Shown here piece after piece: positions 29,375 to 34,109 of a DNA stretch of 34,109 nucleotides. The position numbers and the translations under genes are program-made. The stretch is from Candidatus Omnitrophota bacterium (lineage in GTDB: Bacteria > Omnitrophota > Gorgyraeia > Gygaellales > Profunditerraquicolaceae): NCBI GenBank assembly GCA_016208765.1, contig JACQXK010000021.1:72053-106161 (forward strand), in the 5' to 3' direction. Positions within the stretch are counted from its first letter, which is position 1. The number at the start of each line of letters is the position of its first letter. The notes below the pieces were generated by a model. It worked only from the letters and a program-made list of their open reading frames with translations. It was not told the origin of the DNA and ran no database searches.

Positions 29375-30226
29375 ATGGCCTGGTTTAAGAAAAAAGAACA
29401 ACCTGCGATTGCAAAGAAAGTCAAAGTACCGGAAGGTCTCTGGGTAAAGTGCAATTCGTGCAAGGAGATCATCTACCGTAAAGAGGTGGAGAAGAACCTG
29501 AAGGTATGCCCGAAGTGTAACTACCACTTCAGGATCTCCGCCAAGGAACGTATATCGCTTCTTGTGGACGAAAACAGCTTTGTCGAAATAGGGGTGAACC
29601 TGGTATCTAAAGACCCCCTCAATTTCAAAGACCAGGTCTCATACAGGGACCGTCTCGGAGAGTACCAGAAAAAAACAAGCAACAAAGACGCAGCGATGGC
29701 CGGCAGCGCCCTGATAGGAAACCATAAGACGATGCTCGTCGTCCTTGATTTTGAATTCATGGGCGGCAGCATGGGTTCGGTTGTCGGCGAAAAATTTGTC
29801 ATGGCCGCTGAAAAGGCCGCTGAAGAGGAATTGCCGTTAATATCCGTTGCCTCATCCGGCGGCGCAAGGATGCACGAGGGGATCATCTCTCTCATGCAAA
29901 TGGCAAAGACCTCAGCCTCGATCGCCAGGTTTAAAGAAAAACGAATGCCCTTCATATCAATACTTGCCGACCCGACCTTCGGAGGGGTATCAGCAAGTTT
30001 TGCAATGCTGGGAGACATAATGATCGCGGAGCCCAAAAGCCTGATAGGCTTCGCAGGGCCGAGGGTGATCGAGCAGACGATAAAACAGCAATTGCCCGAG
30101 AACTTTCAAACCGCGGAATTCCTGCTCCAGCACGGGATGATCGATATGATCGTCCCCAGAAAAGAGCTGAAGCAGACCATTATAAAACTTTTGTCATTGA
30201 CCGCCGGAGATAACATATCCGGATAG
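29375..30226 (+). CDS. accD: Acetyl-CoA carboxylase carboxyltransferase subunit beta
   Basis: This 283-residue subunit makes malonyl-CoA together with AccA. The N-terminal zinc ribbon is intact (Cys26, Cys29, Cys45, Cys48). The crotonase-like core has GGSMGSVVGEK, SSGGARMHEGIISLMQMAKTS, LADPTFGGVSASFAMLGD and IGFAGPRVIEQT. It is of normal length. It has no clear Shine-Dalgarno. In many related genomes accD is followed by folC, but here the next gene is convergent, so the block ends at accD. Confidence 0.97.
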   Translation: MAWFKKKEQPAIAKKVKVPEGLWVKCNSCKEIIYRKEVEKNLKVCPKCNYHFRISAKERISLLVDENSFVEIGVNLVSKDPLNFKDQVSYRDRLGEYQKKTSNKDAAMAGSALIGNHKTMLVVLDFEFMGGSMGSVVGEKFVMAAEKAAEEELPLISVASSGGARMHEGIISLMQMAKTSASIARFKEKRMPFISILADPTFGGVSASFAMLGDIMIAEPKSLIGFAGPRVIEQTIKQQLPENFQTAEFLLQHGMIDMIVPRKELKQTIIKLLSLTAGDNISG

Positions 30227-30361
30227 AAAAATTCATACTGAATTGTCTCATTTCCCACTTCACTCATTGATCTTTTCTCTCCTGTTTCTACAACAATTCC
30301 GACAAGACAAAGACAGATAGTTTCCGCTTCGCTCCGTGTGCCATTTAATTCAAATGACTTT

Positions 30362-32512
30362 TCAGTCCCCGATTCCCGGCCCCGGTGCTTTGCCGTAGTA
30401 CTTGCGCCAGATGTTGAAGTCCTGTATCCAGACAGTACCGTTACCGTCTAAATCCACATATGCAGGAGCGCCCTGCTGAATTGTCTTGCCGGCCCACTTG
30501 CGCCATTCATTGAAGTCAATGATATTCACAAGTCCATTGTTGTCGAAGTCAGGATCACAGAGATCACCATAATGCTGTATGCCTGCTTTGTTCAAATTGT
30601 CATCTTCGGGATAATTGCTGTCACGCTGGTCAGAATTTGCAACAAGCCTGCAATTGTCCACCGAATCAGGTACGCCGTCCAAATCTGCATCCATTAAAAC
30701 TACACCATCACAGTTCTCATCTATATTGTTATTGGGGATTTCTGTTGCGGCTGGGTTTATAGCTGCATCGTTGTCATTGCAGTCAGTTGTTTCAGCGCAA
30801 TAACCATCTATATCAATATCAGTGCACGCATCACATGCATCACCTACCTCGTCACCGTCGATATCGAATTGGTCGGGATTGGATACATTCGGACAGTTAT
30901 CATTGCAATCTGAAATTCCATCGCTGTCTGTATCTGTATCAGATATTCCGCAGCCGCAGTCACCAGGCACTGTTTTACCCGGATCATCGGGACATAAGTC
31001 ATATATAATCTCACCGTTGGCATCCGGAGATGTAGAAACTTCAGGATTCGACAAATCGGTTGCAAATGTGTAAGAATCGCCAAAACCCATCTCATACACT
31101 ATGCCGCCTGTATTGTCCTCATTTGCGCTGACAGATAAATACCATCTGAGATATGTTTCAATCTCAGAATTTTCCAGTATGCCATCTTTGTCTTCATCGC
31201 CGTTCAGGACATTTTGATTATTGAAAGTAAGCATTTTCTCGACCGCCCTGCCGAACATCGGCATACCATTAGGCCAGAAATAAGACGAATCGTTTTCTGG
31301 TGCAGCAGCAAAGAATGCTATATTCTTTAGTTTTTCTAAATCGCCTGCATCATTTGGATTATTATTTCCCCAGAAACCTCCTGAATGACAGGCATCAATA
31401 AAAACAAATTTCTTGATGTCATCCATACCGGTTAAGTAAGAATAGAGTTTATCATCGGTTAAAATCTCGTCTCTGTTATCGGTAAGTGCAACAAACTCAT
31501 TTGTGGAGGTAAGTGTTGTTTCCGGTGTCGGCCATCCATTAGCGGGGTCAAGCGAGCCTCCATGTCCTCCCACGTAAACAAAAAGTGAATCTCCTGCTGA
31601 CATATTCCCCTTGAGTGATATTATTGCATCTCTTATTTGAATATCAGTAACAACATCTCCATTATCTCTGTTCGCTGTCAATACAAGCGAGCTTCCATAA
31701 CTCGGCAACTGTCTAAATGCCGCATCCAGCTTCCTTGCCATTTCATCTGTTCTGATATTTACGCTCAATCCCGGAGCACTTTGATAGTTACCTATAAAAA
31801 GACCATGCAGCCGGGGCAGTTTTTTCTGATCACTTGGATCAAGCGGATTCTTTCCCTGGGCAATTTCATCCCCGTCGTTCACGCCGTCGCCATCAGTGTC
31901 CCACTTTATCGGGTCTGTGCCGCGCTGATATTCCCCGAGATTACTCAGATTGTCATGGTCGTAATCATCAAAGGTTGTTTGAACCAGGTCTCCAAAGTAG
32001 TCCATCTCCCAGTTATCAGGTAATCCGTCATTGTCTGCATCAAGAACTGGTGGTGAAACTTCCCATAAGTTAATGTTGGTTGCGCGGGTGTATGGATCAG
32101 CGCCGCTCCCCTGCCAGCCATAGGGGTCTACCGGAATGCCATCTCTTTGTACCTCAAAATGAAGGTGATATGCTCCGGAATATCCAATATGCTGACCTCT
32201 TGTAACAGGGGTTCCTTCTGAAACTACCCGGCTGCTTAAGTGAAGGTAATAAGTTCTGTAACCGTTTTGATGATCAATCTCAATTGTATTGTAATTTTGT
32301 GCAGTTAATACACCCGGAAAACTTGCCGGCATATGCGCTATCCCATCAGCCGCAGCGTAAACCGGTGTGTTATTGGAAACCGGATAATCAATCCCCGGAT
32401 GGCCGTCATAAAACAGATAATAACTATTCCCACCACCTGTATAATTGATACCTTGCAATTGAAATTTCTGACAGTCACTTTTCTTAAACCCGTAGTGTGT
32501 TCCATAGAATGA
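30362..32512 (-). CDS. C-terminal part of a frameshifted multidomain protein: M23, TSP3, caspase-like, MopE-like, dockerin-like
   Basis: The open frame runs from 32512 to the stop at 30362. Its first start-like codon is a TTG at 32458, giving 698 residues, but this is an internal position, not a real start. From that TTG the order is: M23 metallopeptidase (HPGIDYP near residue 20, HLHFEV near 107), bacterial TSP3-type calcium repeats (about 138-212), a caspase-like C14 domain with His299 (VGGHGG) and Cys357 (IDACHSGG), a second TSP3/MopE-like region with DCNDNDAAINPAATE, and two dockerin-like calcium loops (DFDNNGLVNIIDF and DLDGNGTVWIQDF) at the C-terminus. The upstream frame at 32338-33033 carries the missing N-terminus. 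It is secreted and probably surface-associated. Its substrate is unknown. Confidence 0.85.
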   Translation of the reverse strand, partial: SFYGTHYGFKKSDCQKFQLQGINYTGGGNSYYLFYDGHPGIDYPVSNNTPVYAAADGIAHMPASFPGVLTAQNYNTIEIDHQNGYRTYYLHLSSRVVSEGTPVTRGQHIGYSGAYHLHFEVQRDGIPVDPYGWQGSGADPYTRATNINLWEVSPPVLDADNDGLPDNWEMDYFGDLVQTTFDDYDHDNLSNLGEYQRGTDPIKWDTDGDGVNDGDEIAQGKNPLDPSDQKKLPRLHGLFIGNYQSAPGLSVNIRTDEMARKLDAAFRQLPSYGSSLVLTANRDNGDVVTDIQIRDAIISLKGNMSAGDSLFVYVGGHGGSLDPANGWPTPETTLTSTNEFVALTDNRDEILTDDKLYSYLTGMDDIKKFVFIDACHSGGFWGNNNPNDAGDLEKLKNIAFFAAAPENDSSYFWPNGMPMFGRAVEKMLTFNNQNVLNGDEDKDGILENSEIETYLRWYLSVSANEDNTGGIVYEMGFGDSYTFATDLSNPEVSTSPDANGEIIYDLCPDDPGKTVPGDCGCGISDTDTDSDGISDCNDNCPNVSNPDQFDIDGDEVGDACDACTDIDIDGYCAETTDCNDNDAAINPAATEIPNNNIDENCDGVVLMDADLDGVPDSVDNCRLVANSDQRDSNYPEDDNLNKAGIQHYGDLCDPDFDNNGLVNIIDFNEWRKWAGKTIQQGAPAYVDLDGNGTVWIQDFNIWRKYYGKAPGPGIGD

Positions 32513-33033
32513 TCAAATACACTGCTAACTGGAGCAGTATACGGTGTATAACCTTGAACATGAAGCGGAAAAGAAAGCAATAAATCACCAAAGGACCCAG
32601 ACTGTCCGCCGCGCACGCACCGAACGTAGAAGTAGTAGTACTTATAGTAGTTGTAGACGTAGCCATAGTAGAAGTTTACGTACCACGCGTAGCTTGGATA
32701 GCTGGCGTAGGTAGTAGACGACCAGTAGTGGGACGCATATGCATTTGGAAAGTAATTGATATCTATCGCAGGATTATATCTCGTATCATCGGTTATTGAC
32801 TCAAGCTCCTTGATATTCGGCAGCCGCCAGTCTGTCTTGTTAAGTCCTTCACAATATGAAAGAGCGGAACCCCATGTCATAGATCCCGGCTCGCCCTGCT
32901 GCCACACAAGCCCGGTTCTATAATCCGTCACCGTTCCATTGCCGTTGTTGACGAAGCTCGCTGCAAAGGATAGCGCAGCAGAACAGCAGAGCAGCAGCGC
33001 CACTGCTAAAACAAAAAATATCTTTCTCTTCAT
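32338..33033 (-). CDS. N-terminal part of the frameshifted protein: signal peptide and DUF1566 (Lcl) domain
   Basis: The ATG at 33033 has a GAGGAGGG Shine-Dalgarno and begins MKRKIFFVLAVALLLC, a signal peptide ending SFA. A DUF1566/Lcl domain follows (FVNNGNGTVTDYRTGLVWQQ, WRLPNIKELESI, HYWSSTTYA, VRCVRGGQ). The frame stays in register with the downstream M23 module until VFDHSMEH near 32500. After that it reads unrelated residues to its stop at 32338, while the other frame carries on with YGFKKSDC. The original protein was therefore about 890 residues. The stretch between AWYV and VRCV is very rich in Tyr (11 of 23 residues). The frame could be a true mutation or a sequencing error. Confidence 0.8.
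   Translation of the reverse strand: MKRKIFFVLAVALLLCCSAALSFAASFVNNGNGTVTDYRTGLVWQQGEPGSMTWGSALSYCEGLNKTDWRLPNIKELESITDDTRYNPAIDINYFPNAYASHYWSSTTYASYPSYAWYVNFYYGYVYNYYKYYYFYVRCVRGGQSGSFGDLLLSFPLHVQGYTPYTAPVSSVFDHSMEHTTGLRKVTVRNFNCKVSIIQVVGIVIICFMTAIRGLIIRFPITHRFTLRLMG
32605..32735 (-). other. Tyrosine-rich variable-region-like segment of the DUF1566 domain
   Basis: On the minus strand this stretch is a run of TAC/TAT, TTC, AGC and AAC codons ahead of a conserved VRCVRGGQ. Nearly every variable site is an NNC or NNT codon, as in DGR variable regions where AAY codons in a template are mutagenised. No template repeat or reverse transcriptase is found in this window. It may equally be a natural Tyr-rich lectin-like surface. 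Confidence 0.4.
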
Positions 33034-33041
33034 AATTCCCT

Positions 33042-33359
33042 CCTCAAAAAGCAAATGAACTTGCTCTCAAGGTATACAAACTTACAGAAACTTTCCCAAA
33101 GAAAGAAACTTTTGGCATTACCAGTCAGATAAGACGTGCAGTTCTTTCTGTACCGACAAATATTGTTGAAGGTTACAGCAGAAGAACTAAAAATGAACTT
33201 TCCCGTTTTATTGATATTGCCCGAGCCTCTCTGGCAGAAACTGAATACCTTCTTGAGTTCTCTAATGAACTTGGATATATTGATGCAGATACTGCAAACA
33301 TAGAAAGTCTTATAGAAGAAGTCGGCAAACTTCTCTGGGGTTTTCAGAAGAATCTTTAA
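33042..33359 (+). pseudogene. 5'-truncated S23/IVP four-helix-bundle gene remnant
   Basis: A plus-strand frame with no ATG, GTG or TTG start encodes the body of a 23S rRNA intervening-sequence-type four-helix-bundle protein: QKANELALKVYKLTETFPK, TSQIRRAVLSVPTNIVEGYS and SRFIDIARASLAETEYLL, ending QKNL then TAA. The usual first dozen residues before KA-x-EL (an L-x-V-W-type start) are absent. The frame meets a stop just upstream (33033-33035), inside the start region of the divergent DUF1566 gene. A rearrangement probably replaced its 5' end. This family shares its fold with the Avd accessory protein of diversity-generating retroelements, but the sequence is S23-like rather than Avd-like. Confidence 0.8.
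33071..33099 (-). promoter_or_regulatory. Weak candidate promoter for the DUF1566 gene inside the IVP remnant
   Basis: On the minus strand TTGGGA and TATACC are separated by 17 bp, giving a start near 33064, about 30 nt ahead of the ATG at 33033. Each hexamer matches 4 of 6 bases, so this is only a candidate. It would mean that the promoter was captured from the IVP gene body. Confidence 0.3.
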
Positions 33360-33371
33360 AAGCGCATCAGG

Positions 33372-33569
33372 GCAGCAGCGCAGAAGCGCAGTAGTAAAAA
33401 CTATTGTAAGTGCAGCAGAGCAGTAGAGCAACAGACCAGTAGGAAAACACTGCTTCTCTACTGCGTTGCTGCTCTGCTGTTCTGTTGTACTCCATTTAGT
33501 TCTCATTTTCATTTCGTCCTTCCTGCTGTTCTACTGTCCTGCTGCGCTACTGCTCTTCTGCGCTGCTGC
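33372..33569. repeat. Long low-complexity inverted repeat (GCAG/CTGC units)
   Basis: The 23-nt arm at 33372-33394 pairs with 33547-33569 at 22 of 23 bases. Nested inside, GCAGCAGAGCAGTAGAGCAA-type sequence at 33412-33435 is partly complementary to 33450-33487. The sequence is built of imperfect GCAG/GTAG or CTGC/CTAC units. It can fold into a long hairpin, or a cruciform in DNA. It sits just after the stop of the IVP remnant. The 241 bp between 33360 and the hicBA promoter hold no gene. Confidence 0.75.
33516..33536 (+). repeat. Left direct repeat flanking hicBA
   Basis: The 21-nt sequence beginning GTCCTTCCT recurs at 34072-34092 with two mismatches. The two copies, 556 bp apart, bracket the hicBA pair. 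Confidence 0.65.
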
Positions 33570-33577
33570 TCTAATTT

Positions 33578-33606
33578 TTGACAGACAATAACCCATATGG
33601 TAAATT
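33578..33606 (+). promoter_or_regulatory. Promoter of hicBA
   Basis: A perfect TTGACA (33578-33583) is followed after 17 bp by TAAATT (33601-33606). Only 6 nt separate this -10 from the hicB ATG at 33613, and no Shine-Dalgarno lies between, so transcription would start at or beside the start codon. HicB-type antitoxins usually autoregulate such a promoter. Confidence 0.65.
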
Positions 33607-33612
33607 ACAAAC

Positions 33613-33810
33613 ATGAAATACACGGTAGTAATTAATAAGAGCGAGTACGGATACGATGTACATTGCCCGGCGCTTCCCGGCTGCCACAGCCAGGGCGACA
33701 CTCTGGAGGAGGCTATAGAAAATATTAAAGACGCCGTCACAACCTACCTCCATATGATAGAGGAAGAGACAAAGGACGCCACTGTATATCAGATAGAGGT
33801 TCCCGCCTGA
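33613..33810 (+). CDS. hicB: HicB-like antitoxin
   Basis: This 65-residue protein is of the HicB type: MKYTVVINKSEYGYDVHCPALPGCHSQGDTL-like first half (YGYDVHCPALPGCHSQG) and EEAIENIKDAVTTYL helix are the family hallmarks, a partial RNase H fold. There is no separate DNA-binding domain. It lies 1 nt ahead of hicA, in the order antitoxin then toxin, the reverse of E. coli hicAB. It should neutralise HicA by direct binding. Confidence 0.92.
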   Translation: MKYTVVINKSEYGYDVHCPALPGCHSQGDTLEEAIENIKDAVTTYLHMIEEETKDATVYQIEVPA

Positions 33811-33811
33811 A

Positions 33812-34021
33812 ATGCTCTTTACAGATGTCTCTTCCGACCGTGCAGTAAAGGCCTTCGGCAAAGCCGGTTTTAAAATTATCAGCAGAGGTAAACACATTGG
33901 TATGTCCGATGGGACCAGACGCCTTACAATCCCAGGCCATAAAAGACTGAATCCTTATACCCTGAAAGCAATCACTAAGGACGCAGGCCTTACCGATGAA
34001 GAATTCAGGAAGCTTCTTTAA
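33812..34021 (+). CDS. hicA: HicA-like mRNA interferase toxin
   Basis: This 69-residue double-stranded-RNA-binding-fold protein matches HicA/YcfA: SSDRAVKAFGKAGF, the G-x-H motif in SRGKHIGMSDG with catalytic His28, RLTIPGHKRLNPYTLKAI and the final helix LTDEEFRKLL. It would cleave mRNA when HicB is lost. Its ATG follows the hicB stop by 1 nt, and a GAGGT in the hicB end lies about 11 nt upstream, giving coupled translation. Both genes look intact. Confidence 0.92.
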   Translation: MLFTDVSSDRAVKAFGKAGFKIISRGKHIGMSDGTRRLTIPGHKRLNPYTLKAITKDAGLTDEEFRKLL

Positions 34022-34071
34022 TGTCATGTCATAACCCTTTTCATAAGATAGATTATCTGCTCTGCCTTTTT

Positions 34072-34109
34072 GTCCTTCCTACTGCTCTACTGCGCTGCTG
34101 TTCTACTGC
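34072..34109 (+). repeat. Right direct repeat and start of another CTGC/CTAC tract
   Basis: A copy of the left repeat at 33516-33536 begins at 34072. It continues as CTGC/CTAC units to the window edge, and the tract is cut there. The 50 bases after hicA (34022-34071) hold no gene. Confidence 0.65.

Follow-up and report, generated by a model that had tools for sequence, protein, structure and literature searches.

DUF1566 is the most common Pfam domain in the targets of diversity-generating retroelements (DGRs) (PMC6642488), and targets separated from their cores have been described previously. In Treponema denticola, DGR targets persist in isolates without the core and remote targets occur (PMC4891356), and remote variable proteins are known in cyanobacteria (PMC7517822). 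In the S23 family, the S23p open reading frame of the Coxiella IVS and its upstream region are decaying (PMC4990558).

The window analyzed here, a stretch of 34,109 nucleotides, is a clear example of these known processes of genome decay and dispersal, in which a beheaded S23 gene is joined to an apparently orphaned DGR target (Table 1). The best explanation, to which a probability of roughly 0.8 is assigned, is that a truncated S23 gene was joined to the Shine-Dalgarno sequence of a DGR target by deletion or illegitimate recombination, and that the target is probably rewritten from elsewhere, or was until lately. The DUF1566 gene is the same in kind as the targets in PMC6642488, except that the core is missing beside it. 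It resembles the T. denticola targets in that the variable repeat (VR) differs from a template repeat (TR) mainly at adenines and that the reverse transcriptase (RT) and TR appear to be distant or lacking (PMC4891356), but its start lies against a truncated S23 gene, and in its relatives the core consists of an RT that bears a MutS_I part. With the cyanobacterial systems it shares C-type-lectin targets dispersed from the RT and 3' VRs, but it belongs to another lineage and its VR has no assigned in-genome TR (PMC7517822). The S23 gene belongs to the same family, PF05635, as the Coxiella S23p and is decaying too, but it lies outside 23S rRNA, and its 5' end is replaced by the leader of another gene (PMC4990558). 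A loosely described gene truncation is thereby resolved into a base-exact rearrangement at a DGR target and what appears to be a case of a hypervariable surface protein separated from its mutator core; the sequence-only reading had overlooked both the DGR-target nature of the DUF1566 gene and the missing DGR core.

Table 1. Features at the right end of the window, in window positions
Feature	Position	Strand	Basis
Peptidase_M23, caspase-like, TSP3, and MopE-type parts in an open frame	30362..32512	-	profile matches
DUF1566 (Lcl_C, C-type-lectin-like) gene	32338..33033	-	PF07603, E 6.6e-36; ATG at 33033
DGR variable repeat (VR), 132 nt	32605..32736	-	ungapped alignment to TRs of relatives
Shine-Dalgarno sequence AGGAGGG of the DUF1566 gene	33038..33044	-	read from sequence and relatives
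Chimeric junction, DUF1566 5' end/S23 codon 11	33044..33045		0-1 nt microhomology versus the relatives compared
S23/IVP (PF05635) gene body, pseudogene	33045..33359	+	missing start codon and first 10 codons; Pfam/NCBIfam matches
Degenerate 8-nt-period CTRCTGYK repeat arrays, both orientations, inverted repeats	33366..33576		pattern matches
HicB-like antitoxin gene	33613-33810	+	PF15919
HicA toxin gene	33812-34021	+	PF07927
8-nt CTRCTGYK repeat running to the contig end, where the assembly breaks off	34068..34109		pattern matches

Judged by its sequence, the DUF1566 gene is a DGR target: it encodes a C-type-lectin-type domain with a VR at the 3' end, and its differences from TRs are biased toward adenines. 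In cross-genome comparisons with the TRs of three complete DGRs in relatives, the window VR had 16 mismatches at adenines and 2 elsewhere for locus L248 (p 2.4e-7), 18 and 5 for L246 (p 2.3e-6), and 18 and 7 for L254 (p 1.9e-5), and the changes fell in template AAY codons. The six local VRs in L246, L248, and L254 had 17 to 23 mismatches at adenines and 0 or 1 elsewhere, so the method of TR/VR comparison works. An ordinary surface-protein gene that was never a DGR target would fit a contig without an RT and a window without a TR-like stretch, but that reading is barely credible in view of mismatches to the TRs of three relatives that are concentrated at adenines (p 2e-7 to 2e-5) and lie in template AAY codons. 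The window VR is tyrosine-rich, with 13 of its 16 adenine changes being to T, compared with 5 to 14 of 17 to 24 in ten other VRs.

The start of the DUF1566 gene, MKRKIFFVLAVALLLCCSAALSFAA, resembles a signal peptide, and the 5' part of the gene is 79 to 83% identical to relatives; the gene is orthologous to target no. 2 of L246, with 83% DNA identity over positions 1 to 285 of the junction query described below. The DUF1566 frame passes an apparent frameshift and ends at the stop codon at 32338-32340. The frameshift, at 32495-32512 between the DUF1566 part and the M23/caspase-like parts, reflects either true decay or an assembly error; in a relative, L256 in the genome that also carries L070, DUF1566 and M23 are fused in one frame, whereas in the window they are out of frame. 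This downstream frameshift suggests that the target gene may be decaying, or that the assembly is in error at this point.

The DNA from 32760 to 33470 was used as a query for the junction in 230 genomes from the class to which the nearest relative belongs; two candidates were scored per genome, and 48 of the 230 genomes matched. Among the 65 matches listed, those on the DUF1566 side that reach the junction ended at query positions 285 (G363), 284 (G359), and 288 (G366), and those on the S23 side started at position 286 in G147, G298, G148, G273, G280, and G165, at 285 in G372, and at 289 in G252, eight genomes altogether. None of these 65 matches crossed query position 285/286, which corresponds to 33044|33045, by more than 3 bases. 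Upstream of this point, S23 relatives continue into their own start codon, and DUF1566 relatives continue into quite different DNA. Because the homologous DNA of the two genes parts at 33044|33045, and because the closest S23 copy retains the missing residues, this site is a chimeric junction. The proposal that the junction is a recombination point is thereby borne out, and the break is placed to the nucleotide.

No repeat and no microhomology of note were found at the join, which speaks against an assembly chimera and against repeat-mediated recombination alike. An assembly chimera is very improbable, even though the bin is metagenomic and includes one or more foreign contigs and the contig ends in a repeat: the two sides share 0 to 1 nt, while graph assemblers need shared k-mers to connect sequences, the join sits between S23 codon 11 and the Shine-Dalgarno sequence of the DUF1566 gene, and the S23 and DUF1566 gene types are also neighbors in L070 and L071.

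The S23 side of the junction is a well-preserved body without a beginning. The frame from 33036 to 33359 (plus strand) translates as FPPQKANELALKVYKL...FQKNL-stop and scored 115.3 bits on Pfam PF05635 (E 1.8e-33; curated cutoff, 33.8) and 114.6 bits on NCBIfam TIGR02436; the solved S23 protein 2gsc gave a chain match to it with an E value of 9.5e-19. The PF05635 match begins at profile position 7 of 106, so that the N terminus is incomplete. The frame is closed on its 5' side by the TAA at 33033-33035, and neither the interval from this stop codon to the S23 body nor codons 1 to 10 of the body contains an ATG, GTG, or TTG. The absence of a start codon and of the normal first residues, as read from the letters, therefore holds, and so does the statement that the start (ATG, 33033-33031) and Shine-Dalgarno sequence (33044-33038) of the divergent gene occupy the S23 5' region. 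The coordinates given for the frame, 33042-33359, also stood, except that S23 homology begins at 33045 rather than 33042. The window S23 frame is a pseudogene. Its neighbors are protein genes, unlike the original IVS setting in 23S rRNA, and an Rfam search of 30000-34109 gave no RNA family match, placing the body outside any 23S rRNA gene.

The sequence-only reading had further suggested that the DUF1566 gene may now use promoter sequence from within the IVP body. A consensus promoter scan of 33020-33650 does not bear this out, since it returned no minus-strand site; two sites were found, both on the plus strand, compared with 0.9 +/- 1.1 in shuffled sequences. A minus-strand candidate read by eye, TTGGGA-17-TATACC (8/12), was set aside as too weak to be evidence of a promoter.

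Alignment with full-length S23 genes, the check that had been proposed for locating the break, placed it at 33044|33045 with a loss of ten N-terminal codons. Among the class genomes compared, the closest S23 copy is at 3444-3799 of L070, from the Thermodesulfovibrionia bin DeMMO2_3; it is 91% identical in DNA from 33045 on and extends 5' with MPKYKTLIVW, the ten residues missing in the window. Five more S23 relatives have a start codon and MAKYKNLIVW-type N termini. The L070 copy is itself broken by a frameshift farther 3'. Since Ka/Ks values between the window and L070 genes are low on either side of the L070 frameshift (0.235 and 0.058), both copies were under selection until recently. Comparison of window 33045-33359 with L070 3444-3756 gave a Ks of 0.11 for the first 225 nt, before the L070 frameshift, and 0.89 for the last 75 nt compared, after it; the pair is thus a mosaic in Ks, which suggests gene conversion.

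A total of 136 distinct S23 bodies were collected, 116 of which scored above 60 bits, with one of the 116 lying at a contig edge. An in-frame start was absent in 6 of these 116 bodies. The other five startless bodies keep their N-terminal codons and have a stop codon, a frameshift, or merely no ATG, GTG, or TTG; only in the window S23 (1 of 116 bodies) is the 5' end physically replaced. Homologs with the same short N terminus, named beforehand as evidence against a truncation, were thus not found among the 116 bodies. One candidate, L080, was rejected as such a homolog, since a stop codon follows its intact N-terminal codons. That the S23 frame is expressed from a noncanonical start and that its short N terminus is natural is extremely unlikely: the body is intact to its stop codon and its Ka/Ks is low, but there is no start in the first codons, a stop codon stands at 33033-33035, and the N terminus is replaced in none of the other copies among the 116.

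The complete DGRs of relatives show what normally lies beside such a target. In L246 and L248, the order is target no. 1, template repeat, RT with a MutS_I part, and target no. 2; L246, L248, and L254 all have RVT_1 and MutS_I matches, and L254 has in addition a bAvd gene in front. RT and Avd are also present in L249. The MutS-like stretch, for which we take MSL to be the name, although a literature search did not confirm it, lies partly in a different frame from the RT in L246 and L248. In both loci, the MutS-like coding stretch runs right up to the start of target no. 2, and the Shine-Dalgarno sequence of the DUF1566 ortholog overlaps the end of that coding sequence; in the window, the S23 debris begins exactly where the MutS-like stretch ends in L246 and L248. 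The AGGAGG-ATGA sequence is conserved, yet any Shine-Dalgarno sequence followed by ATG-AAG gives the same, so its conservation does not by itself prove that an RT once lay next to it.

Two other loci combine S23 with such targets. In L071, the order is target no. 1, an antisense S23 gene, a ParE-like toxin pair (the toxin and its small partner gene lying on the target no. 2 side of S23), and target no. 2; this S23 is only 65% identical to that of the window. In L070, the order is a bAvd gene, target no. 1, and an antisense S23 gene. With flank lengths varying, an Lcl_C gene lay within 1.6 kb in 3 of the 116 distinct S23 bodies, namely those of the window, L070, and L071. In seven genomes, S23 and Lcl_C genes were adjacent twice against 0.26 expected (P 0.03), which is modestly above chance, in a rough estimate with loci grouped by hand and genomes chosen nonrandomly.

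The arrangement still seen in L071, with an S23 gene antisense between targets no. 1 and no. 2, may have been the starting point. A deletion or another illegitimate recombination would then have removed the DNA from the beginning of target no. 2 up to the S23 body and, with it, the S23 5' end, so that S23 codon 11 became fused to the target no. 2 Shine-Dalgarno sequence; the orphaned target would since have been rewritten by a DGR RT acting from elsewhere in the source genome. Because only 3 of 116 S23 bodies show an Lcl_C gene nearby, we infer, rather than assert, an origin from S23 between targets.

The rival reading is that S23 traveled together with the 8-nt repeats around it and landed within or beside the DGR target locus, with the junction as the insertion edge. 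S23 is multicopy, with 14 matches in G147, 10 in G155, and 9 in G151; like repeats lie on both sides of the L070 S23 gene and recur in other class genomes (query positions 650-711); and in G000:C85 a piece of an S23 gene comes after an integron integrase gene. The window S23 has repeats on its 3' side only, however, with none at the junction, insertion alone would not delete ten codons and a start, and S23 lies between targets in L071 too at 65% identity, so that the neighborhood looks old. Insertion is thus possible but doubtful. The CTRCTGYK repeat had 18 matches in the window versus 0.10 expected, with inverted pairs of 18 to 41 nt. Two copies, at 32976-32997, lie in the signal-peptide-like coding sequence of the DUF1566 gene (ALLLCCSAAL), and signal-peptide cores and intergenic arrays appear to share one repeat. 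Similar repeat arrays flank S23 genes in other class genomes. At L031 1010-2718 (G000:C85), an integron integrase gene (TIGR02249, 467.6 bits) is followed by the S23 gene fragment, which is a possible integron cassette.

A different view would give S23 a role, as an accessory factor for remote DGR targets like its distant relative Avd, kept beside the targets for that reason. S23 belongs to the same four-helix family as Avd, with the window S23 scoring 38.4 bits on bAvd (PF22296) against a cutoff of 40, and three loci show an S23 gene next to a DGR-type target, each time in the same orientation. The NF033474 score, 35.6 bits, was likewise below its cutoff of 80. The view is very unlikely, since the window copy is startless, the L070 copy is frameshifted, and 113 of 116 distinct S23 bodies lack an Lcl_C gene within 1.6 kb (flank lengths vary). 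Just as unlikely is its extension to this Nitrospirota lineage, in which an antisense S23 gene would repeatedly stand where the template-RT-MutS-like core is expected between paired DGR targets, intact S23 would aid rewriting in trans as Avd does, and the window would just have lost its helper. An S23-family gene stands in a row with RT and Cas1-like genes at L149 1297-3611 (G147:C330), with Cas1 recognized by eye, a possible RT-Cas1 CRISPR locus.

Under the preferred reading, a deletion-type junction at a target rewritten from afar, the whereabouts of the core matter. No RVT_1 was found on the contig, C48, so that the 5 kb or so to the left of the DUF1566 gene are free of RT; on the right, the contig stops 1.1 kb beyond the start of this gene, and an RT may lie past the contig end. 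The window contains no TR-like stretch. The window lies at the end of C48, in a 2.4-Mb bin (G000). The window-encoded AccD shares 87% identity with its counterpart in the L070 genome but 55% with the AccD of the genus to which the bin belongs; a second AccD (54%) occurs elsewhere in the bin, on a different contig. Gene order in the stretch leading up to accD matches that of the L070 genome (75.5% DNA identity), in which a folC-like gene (identified from its translation), not DUF1566, follows accD. C48 is most likely a Thermodesulfovibrionia (Nitrospirota) contaminant of the bin. In-bin absences of an intact S23, an RT, and a TR therefore say little about the true genome, and misbinning of a contig defeats a search across its bin for a partner system. 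A DNA search of G000 found no TR for the window VR, but the window contig is foreign to G000.

The window VR itself hints at recent rewriting. At non-adenine sites it equals the L248 TR at 86 of 88 positions, compared with 79 to 83% identity for the 5' part of the gene, and because of this difference the window target has probably been rewritten, now or until lately, by a DGR RT elsewhere in the source genome. DGR action in trans is plausible in view of L247 (G359:C29), a target pair with no RT, Avd, or S23 match within the first 10 kb of its contig. Both of its VRs fit the TR of the complete DGR that the same genome carries on G359:C53 (L254), differing from it at 22 and 21 adenines and at 2 and 2 other sites (p 1.2e-10 and 4.8e-10). 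Together, the window and this G359 pair make diversification in trans testable in Thermodesulfovibrionia. More Lcl_C target loci in class genomes (L250, L251, and L252) had no RT match in the 9 to 12 kb examined, and RT-less DUF1566 targets may be common in the class.

A TR pattern search in six genomes returned only the two VRs, with a pattern that was misplaced at the 5' end and would miss L246-like TRs, so that a TR may still be present in G147. Among the RT loci examined in seven S23-bearing genomes, no TR fitting the window VR or the L070 VR was found; the RT in G153:C111 has a bAvd neighbor and a different target type. For the L071 VRs, no TR was found near the three RT loci of G149. The TR of a DGR in G000:C38 was rejected as the window template, with 7 non-adenine mismatches in the best 50 nt. 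That DGR (L030 1718-4440) is phage-like and comprises RT, an Avd-like gene, a TR, and a target with an Lcl_C domain; in G000:C62 (L033 2593-2930), an open reading frame of a similar variable type adjoins phage-like genes.
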